DNA from: Ruminococcus sp. Phil15
GTDB lineage: Bacteria > Bacillota > Clostridia > Oscillospirales > Ruminococcaceae
DNA length: 64,000 nucleotides
NCBI GenBank assembly: GCA_001940995.1
Contig: MSHC01000021.1
Coordinates: 28,403-92,402 of the forward strand
Direction: 5' to 3'
Within the stretch, counting starts at the first letter, position 1, and every line of letters starts with the position of its first letter. A model generated the notes under the pieces. The model was not told where the DNA came from and ran no database searches. It was given only the letters and a program-made list of their open reading frames with translations. Below, piece by piece: positions 41,554 to 59,614 of the stretch. The position numbers and the translations under genes are program-made.

Positions 41554-41620
41554 GTATTTAGACTATTAACATTTAATTAAGTAAACGTTTTTGTAAAAAT
41601 AAATTTGGGAGGTGTGGAGT

Positions 41621-42151
41621 TTGAAAAACAGAATGGGCTTTACGCTTGTAGAGCTGATAGTCGTTATAGCAATAATCGGTATTCTCGCCGCAATACTTGT
41701 ACCTGCTATGCTCGGATATATTAGCGACGCAAAGATTACCTCGGCTAACGCCAATGCGAAAACTATATATAACGCAGTAAATAATTACTGTCAGAAAGTT
41801 CTGGGCGTCGGATATAAAATACCTCAGGGCGTTTTGGGCGGTTCTGCAGGCGGCGGAATAGACGGTTCTATGGTTGTCGGCACACCCGATTCTATCGCAA
41901 TCGTCGTACCTCAGAATTCACCGGGAAATACGCTTGCAGACTGGTCTGATTGCCTTTCGGTAGCGGTAAATGCGTCTATGAATGAAGACTCAAGAGGAAC
42001 AGTGTATGCCTTTGAAATTAATGATACAGGCTTTCCCGATGCGGTAATCTTTTCTAAAACAGAAGAGGAAGTTTATATCGGCGGCTATCCTATCCCTGCA
42101 AATGAAACAGGCTGGACGCTTTCAAAAGCAGCCGATTCGTCTGAAACATAA
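41621..42151 (+). CDS. pilA: type IV pilin-like protein 3
   Basis: KNRMGFTLVELIVVIAIIGILAAILVPAMLGYISDAK; likely TTG start at 41621 (ORF call begins at 41612). Confidence 0.92.
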   Translation: MKNRMGFTLVELIVVIAIIGILAAILVPAMLGYISDAKITSANANAKTIYNAVNNYCQKVLGVGYKIPQGVLGGSAGGGIDGSMVVGTPDSIAIVVPQNSPGNTLADWSDCLSVAVNASMNEDSRGTVYAFEINDTGFPDAVIFSKTEEEVYIGGYPIPANETGWTLSKAADSSET

Positions 42152-42196: not shown

Positions 42197-42233
42197 TATA
42201 ATGTTCTGTAGTAATCAATAGGAGGTGACGTGC

Positions 42234-44567
42234 TTGAAAAAAACTCTGCCTTATAGCGTCAAGGTTTTCGGAATATCTTTTTTCTGCTTTCTCATAGCAG
42301 TCCTGCCGATGATGATAAGCGGCAACGGGCTTTTTATGCTATATTCCGACTACGATAACCAGAATTTGGAGTTTATGTCAAACCTCCATTATGGCCTCAG
42401 AAACGGCGGACTGGGTTGGGACTGGTATACAGACCTCGGTACGTCGCACCTCTCATCATACAGCTATTACGGACTCGGAAGCATATATTTCTGGATACTT
42501 ATGCTCCTGCCGCAGAGCCTTGTCCTGCCTGCAATGCCTGTGATGCTCGCCCTCAAAACGGCAGTCGCTTCTACTGCCGCATACCTGTTCATTCGCAGAT
42601 TCAATAACTCGGAAAACGCCTCGGCGGTCGGCGGCATACTCTACGGCTTCTCAGGATTTATCCTCTATAACACCCTGTTTTACAGCTTCCACGACGCTAT
42701 CTCTCTATTTCCGCTCCTTCTGATTGCAGTAGAGCTTCACGTCAAGGACGGCAAAAGGGGAGCGTTTGCAGCGGTAACGGCACTGTGCGCAGTGACGAAT
42801 TTCTATTTCTTTTTCGGACAGGTCGTGTTCCTGCTTATCTACATAGCCGTACGCTCAACCGATAAGACCTTTGAAATGACCGCAAAAAAGTTTCTCACCC
42901 TCTCGATAGAGGCAGTATTAGGCGCTCTCATTGCCTGCGTTATCCTGTATCCAAGCTTTGTAGCAGTTTCCGAAAGCGGCAGAGCGAGCGAAAAAATAGC
43001 ACTTGGCGATATGTTTCTCTATAACGGAATTGGCTTTTACCTGCGTTTTCTCCAGATGGCAGTTATGTCGCCCGACCCCTGCCTCATCTCCAACCTTATC
43101 GAAACCCCGCAGTATAAGTTCGGCTCTCTCGCAATCTACCTGCCGCTGTTTTCGGGAGTGTTTGCGCTTGCTTATGCCAGAAAGCACAGAAAATCTTGGC
43201 AGACAAAACTCATAGCCGTGTCAGCTGTTATGGCGTTAGTGCCTGTCCTCAACAGCGTGTTCTCGCTGTTCAACAGCACCTACTATGCCAGATGGCTCTA
43301 TATGCCGATACTGATAGCCTGCCTTATGACTTCAACAGTCACAGATAACCCGGACGACTATCCTGTAAAATCAAGCTTTTGGGTGTATGCGGTACTGTTT
43401 CTCGCTTTCGCAGTCAGCCTGTTTATCCCCGTAACCGACAACGGGCAAAGAGTACCGTATTTTGAAACGCTCGATAAGGTGCTTTTAGTCCCGCAGTTTG
43501 CTGTAACAGCGGCTTTGTATATCGCACTCGCATTTGTCGTTTTCAAGCTCAAGCGTGACCGCCAGTTTGCACTTAATTGCGTGAGCTTTGCAGCGGTAGG
43601 CGCAATAGCCTTTTCCTGCGGATTTCTTTATCCCTGCACCTCGCTCGACAACGGCAGAAAGCTGATCGCAGACAACTATAAGCCCGAAACCTTTGACGAA
43701 TACCGCAGCGAAAGCTTTGAAAGAATAGAGCTTATAGATGCGTACAGCAACTTCAATATGTTCTGGCATCTCCCGTCAAGCAGGTCATATATCAGCCTGT
43801 GCAACAGCTCTGTCTCAGATTTCTATGACATAATCGGACAAACCTATGACGTAGGCACAAGCTATTCTAGCGGTATATTCGCCCTGCGTGGACTCCTCTC
43901 CGTTAAGTATGTCGCAGACGACGTGCCGCCGTCTGAAATATCAAAGAATGATACAACGGGAGAGGCGACAGGCTACTTTGGCTGTGTCTATGACGGTACC
44001 GCAGGCGATTTTTATATCTATGAAAACAGGCACTTTATCCCTATGGGCATAGCCTACGACAGCTATATCACATACGATGATATAGAGAGCCTTGCAACTT
44101 CTGATGAAAAAGCTATGGCTCTGCTTGAAGCGGTAGCCCTCACCGATGACCAGATTGCGGAATATGGCGGAAGCCTCACGCATTTTGACGTATCGTCTGT
44201 TTCAACGGACGTTAGTTATTATTTTGACCTCTGCGATAAACAGGCCCGTACCACCTGCTATGAGTTTAAATACAGCGCAGACGGCTTCGACGCAAAAATC
44301 AATCTCGAAAGCGGCAGATTGGTGCTTTTCAGTATGCCATATGACGACGGCTTTTCCGTCACAGTAAACGGGAAGCAGGCAGACTGGGAAAAGGTATCGG
44401 GCGGCCTTTGCGCAGTGTGGTGCGAGGCAGGGGAGAGCGAAATCTCCGCACGCTATAAATCAAAGGATTTGCCGATAGGCGCTGCTATGTCAGCAGTCGG
44501 AGCGGCAGGTCTTGCAGTATATCTGATTTTGTCATTCCGAAAATCTAAGCATAATAAAAACAGCTAA
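42234..44567 (+). CDS. YfhO-like multi-TM membrane protein
   Basis: FYSDYDNQN-like LYSDYDNQNLEFMSNLHYGLRNGG...TDLGTSHLSSYSYYGLGS; TTG start after AGGAGG. Confidence 0.8.
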   Translation: MKKTLPYSVKVFGISFFCFLIAVLPMMISGNGLFMLYSDYDNQNLEFMSNLHYGLRNGGLGWDWYTDLGTSHLSSYSYYGLGSIYFWILMLLPQSLVLPAMPVMLALKTAVASTAAYLFIRRFNNSENASAVGGILYGFSGFILYNTLFYSFHDAISLFPLLLIAVELHVKDGKRGAFAAVTALCAVTNFYFFFGQVVFLLIYIAVRSTDKTFEMTAKKFLTLSIEAVLGALIACVILYPSFVAVSESGRASEKIALGDMFLYNGIGFYLRFLQMAVMSPDPCLISNLIETPQYKFGSLAIYLPLFSGVFALAYARKHRKSWQTKLIAVSAVMALVPVLNSVFSLFNSTYYARWLYMPILIACLMTSTVTDNPDDYPVKSSFWVYAVLFLAFAVSLFIPVTDNGQRVPYFETLDKVLLVPQFAVTAALYIALAFVVFKLKRDRQFALNCVSFAAVGAIAFSCGFLYPCTSLDNGRKLIADNYKPETFDEYRSESFERIELIDAYSNFNMFWHLPSSRSYISLCNSSVSDFYDIIGQTYDVGTSYSSGIFALRGLLSVKYVADDVPPSEISKNDTTGEATGYFGCVYDGTAGDFYIYENRHFIPMGIAYDSYITYDDIESLATSDEKAMALLEAVALTDDQIAEYGGSLTHFDVSSVSTDVSYYFDLCDKQARTTCYEFKYSADGFDAKINLESGRLVLFSMPYDDGFSVTVNGKQADWEKVSGGLCAVWCEAGESEISARYKSKDLPIGAAMSAVGAAGLAVYLILSFRKSKHNKNS

Positions 44568-45272: not shown

Positions 45273-45348
45273 TGGGGTATAGCCAAGTGGTAAGGCAGTG
45301 GACTCTGACTCCACCATTCCAAAGGTTCGAATCCTTTTACCCCAACCA
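45273..45348 (+). tRNA. tRNA-Gln (CTG)
   Basis: Acceptor TGGGGTA/TACCCCA, anticodon loop CTCTGAC, T-arm GGTTCGAATCC, encoded CCA. Confidence 0.95.
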
Positions 45349-45395
45349 TAAAGCAAAATAAGCCGTCAGTATTGGCGGCTTGTTTTTATATTTGC

Positions 45396-45471
45396 TGCCC
45401 CGTAGCCAAGCGGTAAGGCAACGGACTTTGACTCCGTCATTCCATGCGTTCGAGTCGCATCGGGGCAACCA
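45396..45471 (+). tRNA. tRNA-Gln (TTG)
   Basis: Acceptor TGCCCCG/CGGGGCA, anticodon loop CTTTGAC, encoded CCA. Confidence 0.95.
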
Positions 45472-45475
45472 GAAA

Positions 45476-45508
45476 ATGCTGTGATACATTGTGTCACAGC
45501 ATTTTTTT
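45476..45508 (+). terminator. terminator after tRNA-Gln
   Basis: ATGCTGTGA...TCACAGCATTTTTTT. Confidence 0.8.
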
Positions 45509-45512
45509 GCAG

Positions 45513-46001
45513 CTATAAAATTTTCTCCATGCCAATCTTTTGAACCTCAAGACCGCACTTCCTGTAAAAACCGATCGCCGCCTCGTTGCAAGCCCATACG
45601 TTAAGCGTAACATTGTAGCAGCCGCTCTCCCTCGCAAAGCTTAGAACATATTCGTAAAGTCCGCTGCCGATGTGCCTGCCCCTCGTGTTTTCGTCTACGC
45701 AAAGGTCGTCTATGTAAAGCGTCTTTATGTCGGTCATCATATTGTCATTTACAAACTGCTTGAAAATGCAGAACGCATACCCCTGTACGACATCTCCGTC
45801 GTCCGCCCATACAAAAACAGGAGTAGAATCGTCGGCAATGATCCCGATAATCTCGTCGTCTGTGTATTTTGTCGCCGCATTGAAAATGTCGGGCCTGCCG
45901 ACGTGGTGTACCATATTTACCTGCGTAAGAAGCTCCGTTATCCTTGGGATATCTTTAATTTCCGCACGTCTTATCATTGCTTTGTTCCTCCGTTGCAGCA
46001 C
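45513..46001 (-). CDS. GNAT family N-acetyltransferase
   Basis: IRRAEIKDIPRITELLTQV; LCVDENTRGRHIGSGLYEYVLSFARESGCYNVTLNVWACNEAAIGFYRKCGLE. Confidence 0.9.
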   Translation of the reverse strand: MLQRRNKAMIRRAEIKDIPRITELLTQVNMVHHVGRPDIFNAATKYTDDEIIGIIADDSTPVFVWADDGDVVQGYAFCIFKQFVNDNMMTDIKTLYIDDLCVDENTRGRHIGSGLYEYVLSFARESGCYNVTLNVWACNEAAIGFYRKCGLEVQKIGMEKIL

Positions 46002-46079
46002 TGTTTCTTAAGCAATATTTTATCACAAAAATCCCCTCAATTCAATAGCGCTTTTCATCGGAGCGGTAATTTAAAATAA

Positions 46080-46108
46080 TTGACATATACAGCCGGCTGT
46101 GATATAAT
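46080..46108 (+). promoter_or_regulatory. perfect sigma70 promoter with 12-bp palindrome in the spacer
   Basis: TTGACA (46080-46085), 17 bp, TATAAT (46103-46108); ACAGCCGGCTGT at 46089-46100. Confidence 0.8.
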
Positions 46109-46255
46109 TATAAATAAGTGTGCATTGCTGTAATGGGCTTTCAAAAACGGAGGCCCATATAGAGTATATAATTTTCTAAAATCAATAGGTAGGTTTTCGG
46201 TTGTCTGTTGTGTATAGCTGACGATTTTTCAATACCGGTAAGGAGATTTTATATA

Positions 46256-48523
46256 ATGTCAAAGCAAAAGAAGATTTCCCTTGTTATTTTGATATTTCTG
46301 CTGTCGTTTGTCCTGTTACTATTGTATACGGGATTTGAAGGCGAGGCTTTTTTGTATGATGATAACCGTACACAGTGGTTTCCCGTCACCGAAAAAGCGT
46401 ATGAACAGCTGTTCGAGGACGGCAGTCTTCCGTCATACAGCTTTTATTTAGGCAAAGGTCTTCCTATAGCTGAACCTGGATATTACGATATACTTAATCC
46501 GTTTATGTTTGTTTCGTATATTATCGCTCATGCTCTGCCGTGGAATACAAATATAATGGCAGTGTATGTATGTCTTATGTCGGCTCTGGGTTCGGTTTTC
46601 CTTTTTGGCGTCTGCCAACGCCTGAAATTCGATACAAAGACCTCTTTGCTTGCTGTTGCGGCGCTTTTAACAAGCAGTACTTTTACTGCGCATTTTTACT
46701 GGAAATATATATACAACAACGTGTTTTTTATTCCTCTGCTTATTTATGTATTTCTGAAATTCAGGAACACAAAGGCGGAGTATTTTGCCTGCGGATTGGT
46801 TCTGGCACTTGATGTATTCTGCGGAAACGTGCAGTATACATTTTACCATTACATGGTATACGGCATTATATCGCTGATTATGATACTTGCCAGGAAGAAA
46901 AACAGTTTCAAGGCGGCAGTATCTAATGTTGTTGTGGGAATAGGCTTGTCTGTCCCTGTATTCATTCTGCTTTTGAATGCTTCAACTGATTTCGGTGGAG
47001 GAGAATTTATGTCAAGCGCCACCCGCTTGTGGAAATATCTCCCGAATACGCTTTTCCCTGCAGGAATATTCAAACAATTCGGTATAGACCCTATTGTGCC
47101 TGCACCGGTCGTTATGAGCAGAGCTGACGGATTTCTTTGCTATTGCGCACCGTGTATACTACCGGTAATAATTTGCGCAGTACCTTTTGCCAGACGTGAG
47201 TTTAAGAATGCAAAAACCGACGGATTAGATAAATATGTCAGAGCAATACCCGCAAGGGTAAGAGAATACGCTAAAGATGAAAATAAGCTTATTGTGATTG
47301 GCGTACTTGTTTCGTATCTGGTGATGATGAACATATGTGACAGAAATATCATCGCTGTTATATTGAGTAAGGTGCCTGTTGTCAATAACTTTAGATATCT
47401 TTTTAAGGCGCTCTTTGTGGCTGTACCATTGCTGGCATTATTGACTGCCGTACTGCTGTCCGGCGCAAAGAAAAAGCTTCGTACAGTCGCTGCTTGGGCT
47501 TGCGTCGTTTGTTCATTAATAGGAGTTGTCAATAATATCTTTGTGTACAGGGAAGTCCGTGGATTTTTTGAAGCGCCTCAGCAGAAAACTATTGCAGAGG
47601 AAAAAGATTACCTTCAGGAAATGATTTCGGAAAACAAAATGGATTTGAAGAATTACCGTTCTGTATGTATGTACTGCCATAACAGAATAACGCCGCAGAT
47701 GTTTGATTATTCAAAGGGCGTTATGAGAAATTTCCCCGCTTATGTTGAGATGTTTACACTGTCGGCATATGAAATCTCGCTTGGCGTCGATGTCCGTGAA
47801 CAGTTCGATATGATATATGACCCTGAAAGATTTTTAACAGTGTACCTAAACGGAGGCACTATTGAATACTTAGATGAGAATTTGTCTGATTTTCCGGATG
47901 AAACAGAGCAGCAGCTTATCGCAAACGGCGTAAAGTATGTTATTGTCCAGAGAAAATCTGACCAGGAGTCTTTGTATGCGCAAGATGCGGCGGAAGTTGC
48001 TTTGGGATATGAATTTTATACAGACGAGCTTGCTGAGAAGCTTGACAGCCTTGAGAACATTTCGGTCGAGGATGTCAGAGAGCTTAACGAGATATACGAC
48101 GTTATCGTGCTGTCCGGCGTGAACTCTATCTGTACCGATAATGACGGCAACAGTGTGCCAATTAGCGACGAGCGTATGGATTTAATTTCATTTGAGGCCA
48201 GCGGAAAAGAAAGCTACACAGTGCAGATGGCATATAACGAAAAGCTTTATGCCGAGTACGTTGACGCTTCGGGCAGTATTACTAAGCTGGATATAACGGC
48301 TGACGAAACAGGAAATACAGTTATATCTGCCGAGAACCGCTCAGGCGGCAGAATCCGTCTTGGCTATTCGGATAAGGTGTTTACCATGGGAATCGTTTGT
48401 GAAATTACTGTTTCTGCTCTGCTCGTGCTGCTCCTTGCTATGTCGTTTCTGCCCGACCGAAAAAAGGTTCGGAAAGCCTCGGATATAGCCGGGGATTCTG
48501 TGAAAGGAGTTGACGAACCGTGA
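46256..48523 (+). CDS. YfhO-like multi-TM membrane protein
   Basis: LLLYTGFEGEAFLYDDNRTQWFPV; many TMs; ATG 46256 after AAGGAG. Confidence 0.7.
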   Translation: MSKQKKISLVILIFLLSFVLLLLYTGFEGEAFLYDDNRTQWFPVTEKAYEQLFEDGSLPSYSFYLGKGLPIAEPGYYDILNPFMFVSYIIAHALPWNTNIMAVYVCLMSALGSVFLFGVCQRLKFDTKTSLLAVAALLTSSTFTAHFYWKYIYNNVFFIPLLIYVFLKFRNTKAEYFACGLVLALDVFCGNVQYTFYHYMVYGIISLIMILARKKNSFKAAVSNVVVGIGLSVPVFILLLNASTDFGGGEFMSSATRLWKYLPNTLFPAGIFKQFGIDPIVPAPVVMSRADGFLCYCAPCILPVIICAVPFARREFKNAKTDGLDKYVRAIPARVREYAKDENKLIVIGVLVSYLVMMNICDRNIIAVILSKVPVVNNFRYLFKALFVAVPLLALLTAVLLSGAKKKLRTVAAWACVVCSLIGVVNNIFVYREVRGFFEAPQQKTIAEEKDYLQEMISENKMDLKNYRSVCMYCHNRITPQMFDYSKGVMRNFPAYVEMFTLSAYEISLGVDVREQFDMIYDPERFLTVYLNGGTIEYLDENLSDFPDETEQQLIANGVKYVIVQRKSDQESLYAQDAAEVALGYEFYTDELAEKLDSLENISVEDVRELNEIYDVIVLSGVNSICTDNDGNSVPISDERMDLISFEASGKESYTVQMAYNEKLYAEYVDASGSITKLDITADETGNTVISAENRSGGRIRLGYSDKVFTMGIVCEITVSALLVLLLAMSFLPDRKKVRKASDIAGDSVKGVDEP

Positions 48524-49296
48524 AGATAATTATTCCAATGACAGGCTATGGCTCTCGCTTTGTGGCGGCAGGATATGAAAAGCTTAAGCCTTTTATCGAA
48601 GTGCAGGGAATACCTATAATCGAGTGGATCGTAAAGGGTATGTACAAGGATGAATCGGACTTTTTGTTTATCTGCCGAAAAGAGCATTTGGATGCCCTGC
48701 CGTATATGAGAAAAACTCTTGAGCGAATTGCTCCCACCGGTAAAATCGTTGAAATCGACAATTGGGTAAAAAAAGGCCCCGTGTATGACGTGCTGCGTGC
48801 TGAAAAATATATCGACGATGATAAGCCGTGTATTATAAATTATTGCGATTTTTATATGGATTGGGACTATGCCGGATTTGCTGGGGAAGCTGCAAAACGA
48901 GACTGCGGCGGGAGTGTTCCCTGTTATACCGGGTTTCACCCTCATCTTCGCATAAAAAAGAACCTCTATGCCTCATGCAGGGTGGACGGGAATAACGACC
49001 TTATTGAAATAAGAGAAAAGTATTCGTTTGAGGACGATAAAACGAAGTCTCTGCACTCTCCGGGGGTATACTATTTTCAAAGCGGAAGCTTGATGAAAAA
49101 ATACTGCGGTATGCTTGTTGAAAAAGGCCCTGCGATAAACGGCGAATACTATGCAAGCCTGCCTTATAATTATATGGTTGCAGACGGTGTAAAGGTCTGG
49201 GTTCCCGCAAACGTCAGGAGATTTTGCCAATGGGGTACGCCTGAGGACCTTCAGGATTATCTGTTCTGGACAGACGGCTTGCTGTCATTGAAATGA
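48520..49296 (+). CDS. sugar-phosphate nucleotidyltransferase-like protein
   Basis: MKIIIPMTGYGSRFVAAGYEKLKPFIEVQGIPIIEWIV...RRFCQWGTPEDLQDY; GTGA overlap with the upstream gene. Confidence 0.8.
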   Translation: MKIIIPMTGYGSRFVAAGYEKLKPFIEVQGIPIIEWIVKGMYKDESDFLFICRKEHLDALPYMRKTLERIAPTGKIVEIDNWVKKGPVYDVLRAEKYIDDDKPCIINYCDFYMDWDYAGFAGEAAKRDCGGSVPCYTGFHPHLRIKKNLYASCRVDGNNDLIEIREKYSFEDDKTKSLHSPGVYYFQSGSLMKKYCGMLVEKGPAINGEYYASLPYNYMVADGVKVWVPANVRRFCQWGTPEDLQDYLFWTDGLLSLK

Positions 49297-49316
49297 TGCT
49301 AAGGAGGATATGAAAG

Positions 49317-50111
49317 GTGAATATATTGATCCCTATGGCAGGCGCCGGAAAGAGATTTTCTGACGCAGGATATACCGTACCAAAGCCTATGATACCTACA
49401 TATTGCAGACACGACGGCAATGAATATCCTATGGCAGTCTGCGCAGTAAAAGATATTATACATCTTATCGGAAACGGAAGGCTTATACTGGCACTTCGCA
49501 GTGATAATTATAAGAATATGCAGGAGTATTTTCCCGATGCGGAGTATATTATCGTCGATTACCTTACCGAAGGTCAGGCTTGTACCTGTCTGCTGGCAAA
49601 GGAACTTATAAATTCTGACGAGCCGCTCTTTATAGGCGGATGTGACAGCGGAATGGCAGCGGATAAGGCAAAGCTTGAGGAAATATATGCAAACTCCGAT
49701 GCTGTGATTTTTACATACCGTAATAACGACTGTGTAACTGATAACCCTAACGCCTATGGTTGGGTCGTCACAGACGGAAGCACAAAAGCCGTGGATATAT
49801 CCGTAAAGAAAGCGATCTCTGATAACCCAATGAACGACCATGCAATATCGGCGTCATTTCTTTTCAGGCGTGGCAGAGATTTTGTGCGCTGTGCTGAAAA
49901 AATGATTGCTTGTAACGACAGAATAAATAATGAGTTTTATGCGGATTTGGTTATGAAATACTGTATTGACGAAGGATTGACTGTCAACGTGTTTGAGATA
50001 GATAAGTATATCTGCTGGGGAACACCCGCAGACTATGAGGATTATATGAGGACTGCCGAATATTGGAAGGGCTTCGTCGAGAGCGATGCGTTTGTTCCTG
50101 CAAAAGGGTAG
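49317..50111 (+). CDS. sugar-phosphate nucleotidyltransferase-like protein
   Basis: MNILIPMAGAGKRFSDAGYTVPKPMIP...KYICWGTPADYEDY. Confidence 0.82.
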   Translation: MNILIPMAGAGKRFSDAGYTVPKPMIPTYCRHDGNEYPMAVCAVKDIIHLIGNGRLILALRSDNYKNMQEYFPDAEYIIVDYLTEGQACTCLLAKELINSDEPLFIGGCDSGMAADKAKLEEIYANSDAVIFTYRNNDCVTDNPNAYGWVVTDGSTKAVDISVKKAISDNPMNDHAISASFLFRRGRDFVRCAEKMIACNDRINNEFYADLVMKYCIDEGLTVNVFEIDKYICWGTPADYEDYMRTAEYWKGFVESDAFVPAKG

Positions 50112-50135
50112 AGATTTTTTGAAAGGTGCATTTAA

Positions 50136-52217
50136 ATGAGTACCAGTGCAAACACAATGAAAAAGTCCGAGTGGAGAGAACTTATACCGCTTGTGGCAAT
50201 ATTCATTTTAAAAATAGTGCTTATGGGGCTTTTTTCTTCGGACTATCAGCAAAAGATGTTTGAACCGTTTGTTAACGAATGGCTGGATGGTCTTTCACGA
50301 GGAGAGCTTAATCCGTATCAGGCGTTTTATGACAGAGGGGAAAGCTTTGACTTCCCGTATCCCTGCGGAATGCTTATTATAATGAGCATAGGCGCATTTG
50401 TCAATAGACTGTTTCCGTCAGCGCCCATGTTCATTCATAATGTGATTTTCAAGTTCCCGCTTCTTGTTTTTGATACAATCGGATATATAGTCCTGAAAAA
50501 GCTGTATCCCGGAAAAAGAAGGAATTGCTTTTACATATACCTCTTATCTCCTATCGTTCTATATAGTGTGTTTATGCACGGACAGCTCGACATTATCCCA
50601 ATGGTGCTTCTTTTGGTATCGCTGTATAATATTTCGGGATCGTATTCTAGCCGTAGGTTTGCCCTTTCGGTGACTTTTCTTGCGGCTTCTGTCACGACGA
50701 AGCTTCATATTATCGCAGTAGTTCCGCTCATAATAATATATATATTCAAAAGATTCGGCAGCTTTAAGGCTCTGATATATACAGTCACCCTTTGCGTTGC
50801 CGATGGACTTGCTCTGAGCCTTATCGGAGGCAATGGATTTATGGAGGGCGTTGTTTTTAACCGAGAGGTAAACAGTGCCTTGCTTGTTGTGTTTGAATTT
50901 GGTACGCTCAATCTTTATCTTTCGCTGTTTGCTATCGGCTTCATCTATTTGTATATACTGAATTTGAAGCTTATAAACAGAGAAGTCCTGTTTACGCTGT
51001 GCGGAATGATATTTGCGGTTTTTCTTGCACTGTGCTTCCCAATGCCTGCGTGGTATACATGGGTAGTGCCGTTTATGGCTGTGTTCCTGATAAATGTTAA
51101 TTCCCGTACAGATTCGTTCTGGATGCACTTTTTCCTCAATGGCGCCTACTTGCTGTATTTCGTGTTCTTCCATAAAAGAGCGGGAGTATGCGATCTCTAT
51201 TTTTGCGGAATAAGCTGCGATTTTCTTAAAGTCGATAGCCCGACCCTCGTAAATATTTGTTTTACTGTCCTTACCTGTATTCTTGTTTGGAATATTTATA
51301 TCATGCATAAGCTCGGTATTGCGAATATGGGAATATACAGATTCCATGACAAGAATTTTGTTATCGGAATAAGCGGCGACAGCGGTGCCGGCAAATCAAC
51401 AATGCAGCAGAAGCTTTCTTCGCTTTTTATGCGCAATTACCTGCTTGTCATTGAGGGCGATGGAGACCATAAATGGGAGCGTGGTGACGAGAACTGGAAT
51501 GAATACACCCATTTAGACCCGAAAGCAAATTTTCTTTACCGTCAGGCTCAGGATATACTAAAGCTGAAAAAAAGCGAATGTGTTCGTAGAGTCGATTACG
51601 ACCATTCTACGGGAAGATTTACAGAGGAAAAGATAATAGTCCCCAAGAAATTTATCTCTATCAGTGGTTTGCATACCCTTTATCTTCCTCAGCTCCGTGA
51701 AAGCCTTGATTTGAAGATTTTCTTAGAAGCCGATGAGGAACTGCGTTGCTATTGGAAGGTCAGCCGTGATTCAGGCGAAAGGGCGCAAACCGAGGAGGAC
51801 ATCAGAAGAAAAATATGCGAGAGATATGAAGACGCAAAAAAGTATATTATTCCTCAGAAGGAATATGCAGATATTGTTTTTCGCCATACGTTGGAGAGCA
51901 AAGATCCGCTTCGTATCGGAATGCAAATATGGGTAAATACGCAGATAGATATAGGCGATATTATTGAAGCGCTTCATAATCTCGGCGTAGATATTGAATA
52001 CTCGTTCTCGGAAAACCTGCGTTATCAGGTGGTTGAGTATCATCCGTCTGAGAATGGCGGTGATCCGGAAATTGATTTTAAAAAGCTGTACTATAACATA
52101 GTAGAGTCGAACTATGAGATACTCGGAGTGGATTTCAAAGCCGATGATATAGCTGACGGAATTGAAAAGCTTATAATAATGCGTGCGCTGAGTGAAAAAA
52201 TGAGGTTTTCAATATGA
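50136..52217 (+). CDS. fusion: integral membrane glycosyltransferase-like domain + uridine kinase-like P-loop domain
   Basis: About 400 aa multi-TM N-terminus; C-terminal NFVIGISGDSGAGKSTMQQKLSSLF Walker A and kinase region. Confidence 0.8.
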   Translation: MSTSANTMKKSEWRELIPLVAIFILKIVLMGLFSSDYQQKMFEPFVNEWLDGLSRGELNPYQAFYDRGESFDFPYPCGMLIIMSIGAFVNRLFPSAPMFIHNVIFKFPLLVFDTIGYIVLKKLYPGKRRNCFYIYLLSPIVLYSVFMHGQLDIIPMVLLLVSLYNISGSYSSRRFALSVTFLAASVTTKLHIIAVVPLIIIYIFKRFGSFKALIYTVTLCVADGLALSLIGGNGFMEGVVFNREVNSALLVVFEFGTLNLYLSLFAIGFIYLYILNLKLINREVLFTLCGMIFAVFLALCFPMPAWYTWVVPFMAVFLINVNSRTDSFWMHFFLNGAYLLYFVFFHKRAGVCDLYFCGISCDFLKVDSPTLVNICFTVLTCILVWNIYIMHKLGIANMGIYRFHDKNFVIGISGDSGAGKSTMQQKLSSLFMRNYLLVIEGDGDHKWERGDENWNEYTHLDPKANFLYRQAQDILKLKKSECVRRVDYDHSTGRFTEEKIIVPKKFISISGLHTLYLPQLRESLDLKIFLEADEELRCYWKVSRDSGERAQTEEDIRRKICERYEDAKKYIIPQKEYADIVFRHTLESKDPLRIGMQIWVNTQIDIGDIIEALHNLGVDIEYSFSENLRYQVVEYHPSENGGDPEIDFKKLYYNIVESNYEILGVDFKADDIADGIEKLIIMRALSEKMRFSI

Positions 52218-52891
52218 GGGCTGTAATATTTGATATTGATGATACGTTATATCCGTATGACGTATGCGATAAAAAGGGTATGAACGAGCTTTATGCCGCT
52301 TTTCTCGAATATAAGGAGATGTCCCGCAGCGAATTTGATTTGCTTGTGTCACAGGCTAAAAAAGCCGTAAAGTTACGCACAGGGAATACAGCGGCAAGTC
52401 ATAACAGAATGTTGTACGTTCAGGCTATGTGCGAACTGAGAGGTATATTTTCACCCGAAAAGTGTATAAGGCTCTATAACAGCTATTGGGATGCCTTTCT
52501 TGATAATATGCGTTTGTATGACGGTGCGATAGAGCTTCTGGAAAAGCTTAAAACAATGGGCGTAGCAATAGGGTTTTGCACAGACCTTACTGTTCATATT
52601 CAAATGAGAAAGCTTGTTAAACTCGGTATATCGCATATTCCGAACGCAGTGGTCACAAGCGAGGAATGCGGGTTCGAAAAACCGGATAAGAGTATGTTTA
52701 TCACGATGCTTGAAAAGCTTCATGCCTCGCCGAGCGAAGCAATAATGGTAGGGGATAGCATAGAAAAGGATATGGAGGGTGCCGCAAATTGCGGAATATA
52801 CCCTGTGCTTTTCGGGAAAAAGTCGGACAAATATGAGTATGCAGAGAATTTTGAAGCCCTGTATAAAATTCTGGAAGGAATATGCAGATGA
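52214..52891 (+). CDS. HAD superfamily hydrolase
   Basis: MRAVIFDIDDTLYPYD; CGFEKPDKSMF; IMVGDSIEKDMEGAANCGI. Confidence 0.93.
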   Translation: MRAVIFDIDDTLYPYDVCDKKGMNELYAAFLEYKEMSRSEFDLLVSQAKKAVKLRTGNTAASHNRMLYVQAMCELRGIFSPEKCIRLYNSYWDAFLDNMRLYDGAIELLEKLKTMGVAIGFCTDLTVHIQMRKLVKLGISHIPNAVVTSEECGFEKPDKSMFITMLEKLHASPSEAIMVGDSIEKDMEGAANCGIYPVLFGKKSDKYEYAENFEALYKILEGICR

Positions 52892-53304
52892 ATGAGTTCT
52901 TAAAAAAATTCAGCATTAAGGAATGTGCCAAGTTCCTCGTGGGCGGAGGAAGCGCAGTATTAACTGATTTTACGCTGTATTATCTGCTTATGCACTTGGG
53001 CATGGGAACGGATATCTCGAAGCTTATATCTTATGTCTCAGGAGCGGCGGTAGGCTTTGTTATCAACAAGCTGTGGACTTTCCAAAGCAAGAAATTCAAA
53101 ACCTCTGAGATTGTAAAATACATAATCCTTTATGCTGTATCAGCAGTTGCAAATTCGCTGGTGAATAATCTGGTGCTGAGGATTTTCAGTATATCCTTGA
53201 TTGCGTTTCTTGCCGCAACGGGAGTAAGCACGGTGATAAACTTTCTCGGGCAAAAGTTTTTTGTCTTTACAAAGGAAAAGTCCGATAAATGTGTGTTGAA
53301 ATAA
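52882..53304 (+). CDS. GtrA-like family protein
   Basis: KFLVGGGSAVLTDFTLYYLL...GAAVGFVINKLWTFQSK; four TMs. Confidence 0.9.
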   Translation: MQMNEFLKKFSIKECAKFLVGGGSAVLTDFTLYYLLMHLGMGTDISKLISYVSGAAVGFVINKLWTFQSKKFKTSEIVKYIILYAVSAVANSLVNNLVLRIFSISLIAFLAATGVSTVINFLGQKFFVFTKEKSDKCVLK

Positions 53305-53327
53305 ATATAAAACAGGGAGAAGCAGTT

Positions 53328-54056
53328 ATGTTGTTTTCAATTATTATTCCTTGCTACAATGAGGAGAAGAATATCCCATTGCTGCTTAGCAGGTTTTCTG
53401 AGGTTATCAAAGAACGTCAAGATATCGAGGTTTTGCTTGTTGATAACGGTTCTACGGATAATTCCGCAGAGGTATTGAATAGGCTAATAGGCGAATATAG
53501 CTTTGCACGAAAGGTCACGGTGGAGGTAAACCAAGGCTACGGATACGGGATTCTTAGCGGACTTGCCCAAGCAAAAGGGGATTTTCTTGGCTGGACTCAC
53601 GCCGATATGCAGACCGACCCGCTTGACGTTGTAAAGGCTGTCGATATAATAAAAAAGAATAAGTGCAAAAAGAACATTTATGTGAAAGGAAAAAGACGTG
53701 GAAGAAGTCTGTTTGACCTTGTTTTCACATGGGGAATGGGCGTGTTTGAAACGCTGTACTTGGGTGAAAAGCTCTCAGACATAAATGCACAGCCCAATAT
53801 GTTCAGCAGAAGCTTTTATGAGAAATGGATAGATCCGCCTTACGATTTTTCGCTGGATCTTTACGCTTTTTATTTGGCGAGAAAAAAGCATTGCAGACTA
53901 ATAAGATTTGACGTGTTTTTTCCAAAGCGTATCCATGGAGAGTCCAAGTGGAATACGGGATTTAAGTCAAAGCTGAAATTTATCAAAAGAACCTTGGATT
54001 TTTCGGTAAGCCTGAAAAATAGAATAAAAAGCAATAAAGGGGATAATGAGGTATGA
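53328..54056 (+). CDS. glycosyltransferase family 2 (DPM1-like)
   Basis: LFSIIIPCYNEEKNIPLLLSRF...LLVDNGSTDNS...GWTHADMQTDP. Confidence 0.92.
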   Translation: MLFSIIIPCYNEEKNIPLLLSRFSEVIKERQDIEVLLVDNGSTDNSAEVLNRLIGEYSFARKVTVEVNQGYGYGILSGLAQAKGDFLGWTHADMQTDPLDVVKAVDIIKKNKCKKNIYVKGKRRGRSLFDLVFTWGMGVFETLYLGEKLSDINAQPNMFSRSFYEKWIDPPYDFSLDLYAFYLARKKHCRLIRFDVFFPKRIHGESKWNTGFKSKLKFIKRTLDFSVSLKNRIKSNKGDNEV

Positions 54057-54694
54057 CAGAATATATTGCACACAGAATAAATACTGTCAGAGAACTTCAC
54101 GAAGTTCCGTGCGAATACGGCGTGGAGCTTGATTTGAGAGATGACTGTGACGGCAGTATCTACATAAACCACGATCCGTTTGTTAGGGGAGAATCCTTTG
54201 AGGAGTATCTCAAGATATATTCCCAAAATCAAAGGGGAACAATGATACTTAACGTCAAAAGCGAGCGTATCGAGCATAAGGTGCTTGAGCTTATCAAAAA
54301 ATACGGGATCGAAAAATACTTTTTCCTTGACAGCAGTTTTCCTATGATAAAGCTATTATCCGATAGTGGGGGGAAGAATATTGCGCTGAGATTTTCGGAG
54401 TATGAGGGAATGGACACCGCTTTGGCAATGAAAAATAAAATTGACTGGGTGTGGGTCGATTGCTTTTCGATACTCCCTCTGAACAAAATGGTTTACTCCA
54501 AATTAAAAGAATTGAATTACAAAATATGTGTTGTATCTCCCGAGTTACAAGGACAGCCTGAAAAAATTGAGGAGTATGGACGGTATATGGCGGATAACGG
54601 TATTGTTCCCGATGCCGTATGCACAAAGCAGTGTAATATCGAAAAATGGAAAAATATTCTGAGCAAGGAGAACGCTTTAGATGCTAAATATTAA
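54053..54694 (+). CDS. GDPD-like phosphodiesterase-fold protein
   Basis: IAHRINTVRELHEVPCEYGVELDLRDDCDGSIYINHDPF resembles the GDPD N-terminal motif. Confidence 0.6.
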   Translation: MTEYIAHRINTVRELHEVPCEYGVELDLRDDCDGSIYINHDPFVRGESFEEYLKIYSQNQRGTMILNVKSERIEHKVLELIKKYGIEKYFFLDSSFPMIKLLSDSGGKNIALRFSEYEGMDTALAMKNKIDWVWVDCFSILPLNKMVYSKLKELNYKICVVSPELQGQPEKIEEYGRYMADNGIVPDAVCTKQCNIEKWKNILSKENALDAKY

Positions 54695-55718
54695 TGAAAT
54701 TAATGCTAAGGAGCTTTCATATATGTCCAAATGGGCAAGCTGCTGCGAGGACATTGTGCAGGCAGGAGGGGGAAATACTTCCGTAAAGCAGGACAACGGA
54801 GTGATGCTTATTAAAGCATCCGGATACTCCCTTTCCGACGTTACCGTAAGCGAGGGCTATTCCGCTGTCAATCTTCGCATGATAAGCGAGTGCGTGTATA
54901 GTGACTATTGCAATGATATACCAAAAGAAGCGCTAATCAGCGGCAAAAGACCGTCAATCGAAACGTTTCTTCATTCAATGACAAAAAAGTATACCATACA
55001 CACCCACCCTCTTTGCGTCACAAGGCTTGCAGTGAGGAAAGATGGTATGGATACATTAAAAAAGCTGTTTCCCCAGTCGGTTACCGTTGGGTATGCAGTT
55101 CCGGGTATCGCCCTTGCAAGGAAGATAGCCGAAGCAATGAAACGCAGCGGTAATGCTGACGTTGTGTTTTTGCAGAATCATGGGCTTATCGTAAGCGCCG
55201 ACACCCCGAAAGAAGCTGTTAAGCTCCATACCGAGGTTATAACAAGAATTTGCGGTTTTCTCGAAATGCCTTCGGAAAAATTTCTGCTTGCCTGTAGATT
55301 GTTTGAAACCATGCATTCTGCAGATAACGAAATGATAGTATGTCCCGTCGATAATGAGTATGTAAGTCGGGCGCTTAAAATTACAGACGGCAGGGAGTGG
55401 GAATATAGGTATTCTCCAGATTGCGTGGTCTACTGCGGCGAAAGGTTTGCCGTCCTTAATTCGGATGATAAAATACAGGAACAGCTAGCTTCGTTTATTT
55501 CAGACCACGGAATGCCAAAGGTTATAATATGCGGGGGACTTGCGTTCGTCACAGCCAAAAATGTAAAGAGCTTTAAGGATACCGAGAGCGTACTCGGCTT
55601 TACCGCAAAAATATTTATGAGTGAACAGGAAAACGATGTTAACGTACTGGGTCAATCAGATTGCGCCATGCTTTTGAATTGGGAACCGGAAAAATATCGC
55701 AGGCGTGTGAATTCCTGA
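54681..55718 (+). CDS. class II aldolase/adducin family protein
   Basis: AGGGNTSVKQ...YTIHTHPLCVTRLAVR...VVFLQNHGLIVSADTP. Confidence 0.88.
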   Translation: MLNINEINAKELSYMSKWASCCEDIVQAGGGNTSVKQDNGVMLIKASGYSLSDVTVSEGYSAVNLRMISECVYSDYCNDIPKEALISGKRPSIETFLHSMTKKYTIHTHPLCVTRLAVRKDGMDTLKKLFPQSVTVGYAVPGIALARKIAEAMKRSGNADVVFLQNHGLIVSADTPKEAVKLHTEVITRICGFLEMPSEKFLLACRLFETMHSADNEMIVCPVDNEYVSRALKITDGREWEYRYSPDCVVYCGERFAVLNSDDKIQEQLASFISDHGMPKVIICGGLAFVTAKNVKSFKDTESVLGFTAKIFMSEQENDVNVLGQSDCAMLLNWEPEKYRRRVNS

Positions 55719-55868
55719 TATCCAAACGACCCGGATAAGTCTATCGCTGTCAAAGCTTAATATAGACTGAAATATGGCCAAATGCAAACCCAACGGATTT
55801 ATTCCGATGAGCTAATGCCGGTAGTCAATATAAAATGAGGCGCAAAAAAACCATAGCGCCGCTCCGCC

Positions 55869-56648
55869 TTAAATTATCTGTGTAACAAACTGAGGGAAGC
55901 CCTTTTCACAAGGGCTTCCCTCAGTTTTCAAAAAACGGGAGCAGAGATTTTTTCTCTGCCTCAGATATTCTTCCTTTTGCTTATGCGGAACGGCAGGCAA
56001 AGGTTTAACACCATTCTGAGCTTTCAGGCATTCGTTCCAGTCCTTAAACTCAGGTGCAAGCCGTTTAACGTTTGAATATCCGTTTTCATGAAGAATATCC
56101 CTTAGACGGTCAACAGCCTCAATTCCACCCTCATCGTTATCTACACAAAGTATAATTCCACGGAGGTTAGAATGGTTCTTCAAAGCCGTTAAAACAGCGT
56201 TTTCATAGACACCGTTCATTGCAATATATGAGTGCTGCTGCCAGTCTTTCGGATAGAGGGTGAGGAAACTCATCATATCTATGGGAGCTTCAAACACAAA
56301 CAGCTTTTCCGACTTACCGAAGTGAGAAAAGCTGTATCTTGTGTCCGAACCCTCGCAGGTTATGCGGAATGCATTCCCAAAAGAATTGGTTGAACGCTTG
56401 CTTGCCTGTCTTGGAACTCTGTTTTCATCAATGCCCACAAAGACCGCATTGTGATGTTCCTTATCCTCATAGAGAGTATGTTGCTTTGCAAAATGGCTGA
56501 TAATATCGGGAGAAATGAATCTTTGCTTGATTAGGTAAGCGAAAACTCTATGCATATTCGGATTTGCGACCGGAAGCTTGAAATCTTTCTTTTTTTCCTT
56601 TGCAGTAGCTTTCGGCGGACTGTGGGACAGCGGAGTTACTGCTGTCAC
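55869..56648 (-). pseudogene. DUF3991/TOPRIM-like mobile-element protein, C-terminal part
   Basis: NAVFVGIDENRVPRQASKRS; KLFVFEAPIDMMSFLTLYPKDWQQHSYIAMNG; GIILCVDNDEGGIEAVDRL; separated by stop/GTGA overlap from its N-terminal part. Confidence 0.65.
55887..55927. repeat. perfect 18-bp inverted repeat with 5-nt loop
   Basis: AAACTGAGGGAAGCCCTT-TTCAC-AAGGGCTTCCCTCAGTTT. Confidence 0.9.
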
Positions 56649-56914
56649 AGCAATTCCTGCACCGCCGTCTGAAAGTCCATATCATAGAATTCCTGCATAA
56701 ATTTTATTGCTCCGCCGCCGACCTGATTTTTATGGTCAAACCAGGTCGAGCCACAGAGCGTTATGCTGTCGTGCTTTCCTGAGCTGTCATAGTAAATGAG
56801 CTTATGCTCTCTGCCGACACGTTCTAATTTTTCACCTCTCATTCGTAAAAACTCCGCTAAATCTACGGAGTTTGCTATTACTTTTTGTTCGTCTGTGAAT
56901 GGGATATATGGCAT
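56645..56914 (-). pseudogene. DUF3991/TOPRIM-like protein, N-terminal (CHC2-like) part
   Basis: MPYIPFTDEQKVIANSVDLAEFLRMRGEKL...CGSTWFDHKNQVGGGAIKFMQEFYDMDFQTAVQELL. Confidence 0.6.
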
Positions 56915-57016
56915 GGAAACCTCCTTTCGTGGGTTGATTTTTCGGGTTTGGTGTGGTATAATGAATGATAATATAATGAAATTTCTATTTTATATGAATG
57001 GAAGATGTGAGAAAAA

Positions 57017-57514
57017 GTGGAAATAAATAGTGAATTTATTGAAAATATAAATGGGATTGGTTGGTTTTGTAATTGTGGGAATAATATTCCTGAAAATTTG
57101 GGGCTAAAAGTTAAATCCGCAGGTGAAGCAAAGAAAACAATATCAAGTCTAAGATGGGAAAATATTATTCTCGATAATCAAGGAGAATTGACATCTCAGT
57201 TGTCAATTCGTTCTTGTAAAGGTTTGGGAAAAGAGTACCAAGAATGGAATGAGCTCGTAAAGAAAGTGAAAAGGTGTTATATGCCCATTTGGAGGAAAAC
57301 TTGGAACAAAGAACTTAAAAAAATAGAATTAGCAGATAAAGAAGTATTGGACAATGTTTGCTTTAATATATTGACATTAGTTATGGTTGATGTGTACAAA
57401 GATATTATTCCAGCCACACCGTTTTGGGAAAAACTTTTAGAAATATATCGTTTAGGATATCTTCCGTGTGGTTGGAAAGGAAAGAAAGATAAAGGAGTAT
57501 TTCTAGTGTACTAA
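57017..57514 (+). CDS. hypothetical protein, possible orphan immunity-type protein
   Basis: 165 aa; C-terminal FWEKLLEIYRLGYLPCGWKGKKDKGVFLVY resembles polymorphic-toxin immunity proteins; AT-rich. Confidence 0.45.
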   Translation: MEINSEFIENINGIGWFCNCGNNIPENLGLKVKSAGEAKKTISSLRWENIILDNQGELTSQLSIRSCKGLGKEYQEWNELVKKVKRCYMPIWRKTWNKELKKIELADKEVLDNVCFNILTLVMVDVYKDIIPATPFWEKLLEIYRLGYLPCGWKGKKDKGVFLVY

Positions 57515-57608
57515 CCCCAAATCGCTAATTGGATATTGCCTATAATTCTAATTTCTACCTCTAAAATATAGAAGGACTGAGTACCCCCTCAGTCCTTTTT
57601 CTGTTACC

Positions 57609-57899
57609 TCAATACTTCACATTCTCCGCAAATTTCACTATCAGCTGCGAAAAGCTCTGCCTTTCCATCATATCCGTACTGAGATATGCACCCGAAACAA
57701 CGGTCAGCTTGTTCTCCGAAAGCACAGCGTAAGTTTCGGTGTACCCGAACTGCGTCGCCATGCCGTCGGACTTCTGAACAGAGCCATAACGCTGATACTT
57801 GCCCTTAGAAACAACACTGCCGGTCATTCGGTAGCTTGACACAAAATCGTCCTCGTTTACCGTAAACTTTATCTCGTTTGCAATTTCGTCAAGTGACAT
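57609..57899 (-). CDS. hypothetical protein
   Basis: 96 aa ORF on the minus strand with plausible composition. Confidence 0.45.
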   Translation of the reverse strand: MSLDEIANEIKFTVNEDDFVSSYRMTGSVVSKGKYQRYGSVQKSDGMATQFGYTETYAVLSENKLTVVSGAYLSTDMMERQSFSQLIVKFAENVKY

Positions 57900-57913
57900 T
57901 TTGCCTTTCCTAA

Positions 57914-58066
57914 TTAACTTTTTTGCCGTTTTTTCGCTTCCCTAAGGGTAGCATTATCATCAATATCCTTTGCAAATGCTTACAAAATCTGTTCATCGTC
58001 AAACAATGTCATCATAATATCCACAACCTCCTGTTCCTTATTTTCCGGATATTCTTTCAACACAGA
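57914..58066 (-). pseudogene. possible Rpn/PD-(D/E)XK transposase-family C-terminal remnant
   Basis: Reads VLKEYPENKEQEVVDIMMTLFDDEQIL*AFAKDIDDNATLREAKKRQKS*, with an in-frame stop. Confidence 0.35.
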
Positions 58067-58130
58067 TAAACAATATTTAATTTTTATGTACTAATTCTAC
58101 AAATACGAATTTGTCCTTTTGTAAATTGTG

Positions 58131-58891
58131 CTAATAATCTGCCTTTGTTGTTTTGCTACATAAAGTAAATATATGTGTAGCAAATATAATTTGAATACAT
58201 GTGGAAATGGCAATTCCTACACCCTCATTAATTGATATCCCATAACTTACAATCGCATTACAAATAGAATGAAAGAGAATGCATGGTAATATACTTCCTC
58301 CTATTTTATTGATAGCTGCAAGTGAAAAGGCTGAGCCTACCGATGAAACTGCAAACCATAAATAATTCCCCGAATATTGATATGTGCCTTTAATAAAACA
58401 AAGTGGAATATGCCATACAATCCATATAGCACTATTTATCAAAGTGGCAACAAAAAATCCAAACTTTTTTCCAGTTTAGGTTGCAAATACCCTCTCCACC
58501 CAATTTCTTCAAGCCCACCAAATAATAACATTACAGGTGTAAAAACAACTACTTGCCACCAATTGCCAATGATACTTACATCACCAAATAAAAATGGTAT
58601 TCCAAATCGAATTGCCATAAAGATACCAATTAATAAAATTTCTAAAATTGGCTGATTAAACTTAAAAGAAGATTTTATAAAATAACATATTCCGCTTTCG
58701 TCAGATTCATTTTGCATAACAACATATCCACTGATTGCAGGAGCGCATACAGCAATGACATAAAAAATAATTCCTATATTGTATGTGGGATGTTCATATA
58801 ATCCTACTTTGCTTAAAATTATATCAAATCCCCAAAATAAATAGGTTATAGTGAATGTTAAAACCAAATATTGATAAATTTTTTTAGACAT
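58131..58891 (-). pseudogene. CPBP family intramembrane protease, frameshifted
   Basis: Upstream ORF ends EEIGWRGYLQPKLEKSLDFLLPL*; downstream ORF starts INSAIWIVWHIPLCF; one added A in the A6 tract joins them. Confidence 0.85.
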
Positions 58892-58929
58892 TTTACTACC
58901 TCTTAAAACTTAAAATCCATAAACAAAAA

Positions 58930-59190
58930 CTACACCATTGTTCCTGCAATGCCATTGCCTTGATAGTCGGGATGTACCAATACATAGTGGATATATGTGA
59001 CCATTTCACTGTCGTCTAATGCTCGGAGCAATCCAACTAATTTATCGTTATCCCAAGCAGTTATAACGGTAGACGAGTGTTTAAGCGCCTTGCGTAATCT
59101 TGACGGATAATTGCCTGATACCCAGTTTACTGACAAAGATAAATCCTGTGCCTGCTTTTCTGAAAATCGTTTTTCTTTTGTAAACGTAAT
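58930..59190 (-). pseudogene. truncated GNAT acetyltransferase
   Basis: TAWDNDKLVGLLRALDDSEMVTYIHYVLVHPDYQGNGIAGTMV* stops just after the acetyl-CoA-binding motif. Confidence 0.6.
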
Positions 59191-59215
59191 ATTGCCTATA
59201 ATAAACCCCTTATTT

Positions 59216-59362
59216 TTATTCGTGTTTCTTGCATTGTATCATCTTGCTTTCGCCGTCCTCTTTGCAGAAAGCTCCCAACCGCTTACAAATGCTATGTGTA
59301 ATCGGAACAACCGATTTACCCTTTTCGGTCAGTGAATATTCAACCTTTTTGATGCTCACAGC
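59216..59362 (-). pseudogene. HxlR family regulator C-terminal fragment
   Basis: Minus strand reads AVSIKKVEYSLTEKGKSVVPITHSICKRLGAFCKEDGESKMIQCKKHE*. Confidence 0.6.
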
Positions 59363-59497
59363 ACATTTATCATATATTTTCTCTCAAACATAATATAATC
59401 TGCTGTATACTCTGTTACTCGGTAATTTTGATTCCGTCGCTTTAAAATTCGTCCTGTTATTTTCCATTTAGGTATGTAAAATATCTTTGCTTACGAA

Positions 59498-59536
59498 AAA
59501 CCCTCTCTTGCTTTGAAAGACAAAAGAGGGTTTTTC
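59498..59536 (-). terminator. terminator of tRNA-Ala
   Basis: AAAACCCTCT...AGAGGGTTTTT. Confidence 0.75.
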
Positions 59537-59538
59537 CA

Positions 59539-59614
59539 TGGTGGAGCATACGGGATTCGAACCCGTGACCTCCACACTGCCAGTGTGGCGCGCTCCCAAC
59601 TGCGCTAATACCCC
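59539..59614 (-). tRNA. tRNA-Ala (GGC)
   Basis: Reverse complement GGGGTAT...TGGCAGT anticodon loop...GGGTTCGAATCCC...ATGCTCCACCA; G3:U70 pair typical of tRNA-Ala. Confidence 0.93.

Follow-up and report, generated by a model that had tools for sequence, protein, structure and literature searches.

A mobile gtr-like gene cassette with a phosphoribulokinase-glycosyltransferase fusion as a candidate pathway for pentulose-derived surface glycan modification

The DNA analysed here, hereafter the window, is a stretch of 64,000 nucleotides from Ruminococcus sp. Phil15 (assembly GCA_001940995.1, contig MSHC01000021.1, positions 28,403 to 92,402 of the forward strand), and it carries a nine-gene operon in which a phosphoribulokinase-like kinase is fused to a predicted membrane glycosyltransferase. 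We propose that this operon works as a self-sufficient cassette, passed on horizontally, whose products would synthesise a pentulose-derived sugar in activated form and, outside the membrane, join it to a surface glycan, a reading to which we give a probability of roughly 0.55. It is highly probable that the cassette is, in type, a gtr-like surface sugar modification system with its own donor synthesis, and a pentulose origin of the attached residue is somewhat favoured.

An open reading frame (ORF) list and a check of starts and stops place the nine genes on the same strand (46256-55718, +) as one operon with the following features.

46080-46108, + strand: perfect sigma-70-type promoter with extended -10, from the promoter scan
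46256-48523, + strand: large multi-transmembrane (multi-TM) protein, probable GT-C glycosyltransferase, variable and presumably acceptor-specific, from the TM scan and comparison of loci
48520-49296, + strand: nucleotidyltransferase (NTase) A, predicted sugar/alcohol-phosphate type, keeping the motifs GxGxR, K, Asp and Glu, with a PDB profile match
49317-50111, + strand: NTase B, from motifs and a PDB profile match
50136-51344, + strand: N-terminal membrane half of the fusion protein, predicted GT87-like GT-C glycosyltransferase, from sub-cut-off GT87 and PMT_2 matches in homologues, a multi-helix model and the TM scan
51345-52217, + strand: C-terminal half of the fusion protein, phosphoribulokinase (PRK) domain including the PRK C-terminal region, from Pfam, NCBIfam, PDB profile, fold, motifs and tree
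52214-52891, + strand: HAD-IA phosphatase, closest to the curated model of ribulose-1,5-bisphosphate (RuBP) 5-phosphatase (200 bits, cut-off 330)
52882-53304, + strand: GtrA-family flippase, from Pfam
53328-54056, + strand: GT2 polyprenyl-phosphate glycosyltransferase of DPM1/GtrB type, from Pfam, NCBIfam and the homologue on phage-like contig L033, which matches the GtrB O-antigen conversion PHROG
54053-54694, + strand: GDPD-fold phosphodiesterase-like protein, from invariant residues and predicted fold
54681-55718, + strand: class II aldolase of FucA/RhaD type, from Pfam and the motifs PSxE, HxH...H, GN.S and SG

Pfam cut-offs are exceeded by the HAD phosphatase, GtrA and GT2, and likewise by the PRK-type kinase and the class II aldolase. 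An earlier reading of the letters alone, the original prediction, had counted eight genes running in one direction while itself naming nine; the shared direction stands and the count is nine. The overlaps that it described are all borne out, at 48520/48523 (4 nt), 52214/52217 (4 nt), 52882/52891 (10 nt), 54053/54056 (4 nt) and 54681/54694 (14 nt), and gaps of 20 nt and 24 nt precede NTase B and the fusion gene. The promoter, a TTGACA-17-TATAAT consensus with a TG extension, lies 147 nt ahead of the first gene and is one of only two 12/12 matches in 11.3 kb, the other being intragenic and on the opposite strand. Better-placed starts were found for the first gene (ATG 46256, AAGGAG upstream) and for the GT2 gene (ATG 53328, GGGAG upstream).

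Profile searches, a tree, the predicted fold and active-site motifs all liken the kinase half of the fusion protein to phosphoribulokinase. In NCBIfam a PRK subfamily scores 166 bits and uridine kinase 73, and in the PDB profile search PRK is the best match at 4e-59 against 2e-24 for uridine kinase. Foldseek aligned the AlphaFold model of the domain with a cyanobacterial PRK (8e-14) over about 310 columns, the C-terminal region included. We aligned the cassette kinases with four PRKs of RuBisCO-bearing genomes, in three of which RuBisCO lies close to the PRK gene (G1101, G1085 and G970), and with ten uridine-kinase relatives. The motifs D..H...R, YDH..G and K..RD...R are common to the cassette kinases and the RuBisCO-linked PRKs, and D..H...R is absent from the uridine kinases. 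All 12 cassette kinases form one clade (support 96/93), which groups with the PRKs of RuBisCO-bearing genomes (93/92) apart from the uridine kinases and is marked by private signatures, GD[DG] and THL in place of LDD and TAL. The D..H...R and R/D/R positions are invariant in all 12 sequences and correspond to D42, H45, R49, R168, D169 and R173 of the Rhodobacter sphaeroides enzyme, which we take to be substrate-binding or catalytic. The Escherichia coli copy is annotated as uridine kinase, a name that we reject on profile, tree and motifs, and the cassette kinase may act on ribulose-5-phosphate, as predicted from its sequence. RuBisCO had no match in the genomes G000, G036 and G762, an absence that is provisional for G000, which is only 89% complete. 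The best fold matches of the cassette kinase are PDB 9qko and 9qkn, cyanobacterial PRK-like structures of which one was deposited as 'uridine kinase', and this hints at a broader PRK-like family.

In every full-length copy the kinase is joined to the membrane half, which is multi-TM in the scan and multi-helix in its predicted model. Matches to GT87 in the Azospirillum copy (L031, 2.6e-4) and to PMT_2 in the L014 copy (0.0024) suggest a GT87/PMT-like GT-C glycosyltransferase.

For the HAD protein, RuBP 5-phosphatase (NF053830) is the best NCBIfam model, with the next at 121 bits, and the same order holds for the E. coli copy (168 versus 97). The aldolase keeps its FucA/RhaD motifs and is predicted to be of the ketose-1-phosphate type; it scores 22 bits against the ribulose-1-phosphate aldolase model NF053831 (cut-off 300). 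A pair of RuBP phosphatase and ribulose-1-phosphate aldolase has been demonstrated experimentally in haloarchaea (PMC9700705). Taken together, a PRK-like kinase, a HAD protein nearest to RuBP phosphatase and an aldolase of ketose-1-phosphate type point to a pentulose-1-phosphate intermediate. In the closest relative (fusion protein 72% identical) the HAD gene appears as two ORFs (L013:2824-3504), either a decaying gene or an assembly error.

Both nucleotidyltransferases named in the original prediction are sub-threshold in Pfam, yet their active-site motifs are recognisable and PDB profiles match them; in the Proteobacteria copies, the phage-like copies and G762 (L024) the two are fused as one protein. 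The GDPD-like protein matched no Pfam or NCBIfam family and nothing in the PDB sequence search; the fold search succeeded instead, placing its model (pLDDT 89) with GDPD TIM barrels (Foldseek 2.5e-8). It carries the H..E.D..H catalytic set, and H7, R8, E25, D27, H40 and K69 are invariant in all 13 sequences. This subfamily is rare, occurring in 4/341 genomes of the class, two with cassettes and two with a related gene quartet described below.

The export side is formed by GtrA (Pfam GtrA_DPMS_TM, 1e-20) and GT2 (PF00535, 3e-22; best NCBIfam model undecaprenyl-phosphate Ara4FN transferase), and these two genes support the earlier view of a surface-glycan operon with lipid-linked transfer. The first gene had been called YfhO-like, a label that does not hold at the sequence level (no PF09586 match at E<=5). 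It has a homologue only in L014, and the other loci carry unrelated large multi-TM proteins. A genuine YfhO-family gene does lie upstream (42225-44567; PF09586, 6.5e-62), and its synteny with G004, the closest relative genome, marks it as core and outside the cassette. By its likeness to known systems, the GtrA, GT2 and GT-C part is predicted to be a gtr-type periplasmic glycan modification module that would alter a surface glycan. Genes for polysaccharide ABC export and other glycosyltransferases adjoin the cassette in relatives (read from the sequences, unscored), which makes the local surface polysaccharide the probable acceptor.

Co-conservation in other genomes had been named beforehand as a test, and the neighbourhood comparison shows strong co-occurrence of the set. 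Eight functions recur, namely NTase A, NTase B, the glycosyltransferase/kinase fusion, HAD, GtrA, GT2, the GDPD-like protein and the aldolase, and the ninth, the large membrane protein, varies. We scored ten cassette-covering loci (the window, L014, L015, L016, L018 and L029-L033) with profiles built from the cassette alignments; GtrA is present in 9/10 and the other seven functions in all ten, and no locus that reaches far enough lacks the aldolase. Because the set co-occurs across these loci despite a gene order reshuffled between lineages, the genes are a linked module rather than a chance cluster.

The full-length fusion protein occurs in 2/394 sampled genomes of the order, in 3/391 of the class, in none of nine genomes of the same genus (0/9) and on five further named contigs. 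A tblastn search of plasmids found the set on an E. coli IncR plasmid, on Hirschia baltica pHbal01 and on Azospirillum brasilense p5. On a second E. coli plasmid, from frog-farm sediment in China, the fusion gene is 100% identical and IS26 flanks the cassette; cassette plasmids were found in 2/5,426 complete E. coli genomes. The two small E. coli plasmids (L029 and L036, one of them IncR) come from human stool and frog-farm sediment, and AIDA-repeat remnants adjoin the cassette of the latter. A viral scan with the window's fusion protein as query returned no relatives, whereas the E. coli fusion as query did. Two IMG/VR contigs carry the cassette. Its neighbours in L032 code for terminase, portal, scaffold and capsid proteins and those in L033 for baseplate, endolysin and repressor proteins, and carriage by phage-like elements is likely given these structural and lysis genes.

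In the Ruminococcus genome itself the operon lies in a variable region between tRNA genes, identified by comparison with G004.

45273-45471, + strand: pair of tRNA-Gln genes bounding the variable region on the left
59539-59614, - strand: tRNA-Ala gene bounding the variable region on the right

Homology to G004 stops at the second tRNA-Gln (45471) and resumes at the tRNA-Ala (59539), and in G004 different DNA follows each of these tRNA genes; since the two G004 flanks belong to separate contigs, an empty site was not seen directly. The sequence comparison suggests that the region 45472-59538 is an integration hotspot. Across its 14 kb the GC content falls below that of most of the window, and just downstream of the operon lies a DUF3991/Toprim_2 gene (55869-56648, minus strand), which is typical of mobile elements and is possibly a relic of the vehicle. 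The homology break, the low GC and this gene together indicate that the operon is probably recently acquired island cargo. The surroundings of the two tRNA borders share no 14-mers, and hence no direct repeats of that length that could be attachment sites were found. Also within the region, a CPBP/Rce1-like protease appears as two overlapping ORFs (58131-58891), possibly a frameshifted gene, and outside it there is a type IV pilin-like gene (41612-42151; N_methyl), of which the relative L052 has at least three in tandem here.

Parts of the cassette also occur elsewhere. The quartet GDPD-HAD-NTase-NTase lies without kinase or aldolase beside LicD genes in L049, where a ribulose-phosphate 3-epimerase homologue adjoins it, and in L050, where a fused TagD-like (glycerol-3-phosphate cytidylyltransferase-like)/oxidoreductase gene does; we regard it as a sister module of the cassette. 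Quartets of the same type with a beta-PGM/YqaB-like HAD were found on Rhizobium, Azospirillum, Pseudomonas and Scandinavium plasmids. The cyanophages S-SM2 and Bellamy (L039 and L040) encode a class II aldolase together with a tandem NTase that shares 40% identity with its E. coli counterpart, and S-SM2 a GT61 as well; this looks like part of the pathway in lytic-phage form.

From these parts we infer the following substrates and order of steps. The kinase domain would phosphorylate C1 of ribulose-5-phosphate or a close pentulose-5-phosphate, and the HAD enzyme would remove the 5-phosphate to leave a pentulose-1-phosphate. At this same ketose-1-phosphate node the aldolase might act by retro-aldol/aldol reshaping, or by synthesis from dihydroxyacetone phosphate (DHAP) and an aldehyde. 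The two NTases and the GDPD-like phosphodiesterase would then yield a nucleotide-activated glycosyl donor, and we speculate that their joint presence reflects a rearrangement of phosphate. Following the known logic of GtrA, GtrB and GT-C enzymes, GT2 would transfer the residue to undecaprenyl phosphate, GtrA would flip the lipid-linked residue, and the GT87-like fusion half, the variable ninth membrane protein or both would attach it to the acceptor. A more specific route is decidedly tentative: the first NTase and the GDPD-like protein would shift the phosphate of the pentulose-1-phosphate from C1 to the anomeric C2 via a cyclic phosphate and the second NTase would activate C2, so that a polyprenyl-phosphate-pentulofuranose could be made and exported. 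We know of no established enzymology for a nucleotide-activated ketopentofuranose donor; such a shift, if true, would account for the constant association of two NTases with a phosphodiesterase.

Several points weigh against this proposal. The HAD and aldolase scores fall far under the curated cut-offs for the named activities, the GT87 match of the membrane half (21.2 bits) is under the Pfam cut-off of 25, and L015 shows no GtrA within 22 kb. PRK yields a C1 phosphate, but a GT2 donor must be activated at its anomeric carbon, which in a ketose is C2, and this demands an extra, unproven step. Finally, the xylulose O-antigen locus of Yersinia enterocolitica O:10 has been explained without such enzymes (PMC11380512); this locus lacks these genes, and xylulose O-antigen loci were therefore rejected as a ready-made explanation. 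The fructose branch of Campylobacter jejuni HS1 was set aside too, only a transferase having been identified there.

The product need not be glycosidically linked. The original prediction spoke of a polyol or phospho-sugar decoration, and the polyol part is not supported, since neither a reductase nor a dehydrogenase is encoded in the cassette and the closest relatives of its kinase, phosphatase and aldolase are enzymes of ribulose-5-phosphate, RuBP and ketose-1-phosphates. A phospho-linked product would arise if a small alcohol or keto-alcohol phosphate (e.g. ribulose- or glycerol-like), activated with cytidine diphosphate, were phosphodiester-linked in a teichoic-acid-like or capsule polymer. 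PRK and HAD would directly yield a primary 1-phosphate fit for a cytidylyltransferase, and the quartets of L049 and L050 stand beside LicD phosphotransferases, the epimerase homologue and the cytidylyltransferase-like domain. We nevertheless consider it unlikely, as the cassette lacks a LicD/TagF-type transferase as well as a polyol reductase, and instead has the GT2, GtrA and GT-C set that uses polyprenyl-phosphate-sugars.

The kinase might alternatively be a repurposed PRK fold acting on a lipid- or nucleotide-linked intermediate instead of free ribulose-5-phosphate, in which case the sugar need not be a pentulose. Its fusion to a membrane enzyme using lipid-linked sugars, its own clade with private signatures and the presence of nucleoside kinases in the PRK superfamily would fit this, but the invariance of the presumed substrate-binding and catalytic positions in all 12 sequences makes it rather improbable. 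We hold it improbable, too, that the enzymes form a salvage or overflow branch, from ribulose-5-phosphate through RuBP and ribulose-1-phosphate to DHAP and glycolaldehyde, merely co-transferred with an ordinary glycosylation cassette whose sugar it does not supply. Its reaction logic would be that of the haloarchaeal pentose bisphosphate pathway (PMC9700705), but every full-length copy joins kinase to membrane glycosyltransferase, the aldolase is never missing from sufficiently long loci, and the S-SM2 and Bellamy sets, with GT61 in S-SM2, tie the aldolase to the glycan side.

The cassette, as we read it, would supply a donor for a pentulose-derived residue. We know of no established donor pathway for ketopentoses in polysaccharides. 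Some bacterial polysaccharides contain ketopentoses such as xylulose (PMC8707391). Already present on small E. coli plasmids, the cassette offers a compact means of testing such a pathway. In genomes where RuBisCO was not detected, a PRK-type domain is here fused to a predicted glycosyltransferase, and it is passed on together with a constant set of glycan enzymes that spans Bacillota, Proteobacteria, plasmids and phage-like contigs. No described match to the gene combination, and no described pathway fitting it, was found in the open-access literature, subscription papers and preprints being outside the search; the earlier view of an unusual enzyme set is supported.

Among known systems, the phage-borne and chromosomal gtr modules move a lipid-linked sugar outside and then attach it to a surface glycan. 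Like the gtrABC seroconversion modules, the cassette combines GtrA, GT2 and a variable, predicted membrane glycosyltransferase and is mobile with phage-borne copies; the gtr modules use host-made donors, whereas the cassette adds two NTases, PRK, HAD, the GDPD-like protein and the aldolase and has its predicted membrane glycosyltransferase fused to a kinase. The CsbB-GtcA-YfhO type of Listeria and Bacillus, which glycosylates lipoteichoic and teichoic acids, shares GT2, GtrA, a large multi-TM transferase and the Gram-positive-type genome, whereas the first gene of the cassette has no detectable YfhO similarity and donor-synthesis enzymes are added. In ADP-heptose activation (HldE/GmhB), a kinase makes a bisphosphate, a HAD enzyme the 1-phosphate and an NTase the nucleotide donor; the cassette would follow the same order of logic, but with an unrelated kinase family, a predicted ketose substrate, an extra NTase, the GDPD-like protein and the aldolase. 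Phosphoribulokinase is known mainly from CO2 fixation, plus an archaeal relative pathway. The class II enzyme of the Calvin cycle resembles the cassette kinase in its fold including the C-terminal region, in tree placement and in active-site motifs, and differs in that the latter is fused to a GT87-like membrane protein, has private motif changes and occurs without a RuBisCO match in G000, G036 and G762. The haloarchaeal non-carboxylating pentose bisphosphate pathway (PMC9700705) has the RuBP phosphatase nearest to the cassette HAD and an aldolase of the same superfamily, but it is catabolic and obtains RuBP from ribose-1,5-bisphosphate isomerase, whereas the cassette kinase would make RuBP for a glycan. 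As a kind, then, the cassette is very probably a gtr-like modification module, and the donor module and the PRK-glycosyltransferase fusion are the parts for which we know of no precedent.

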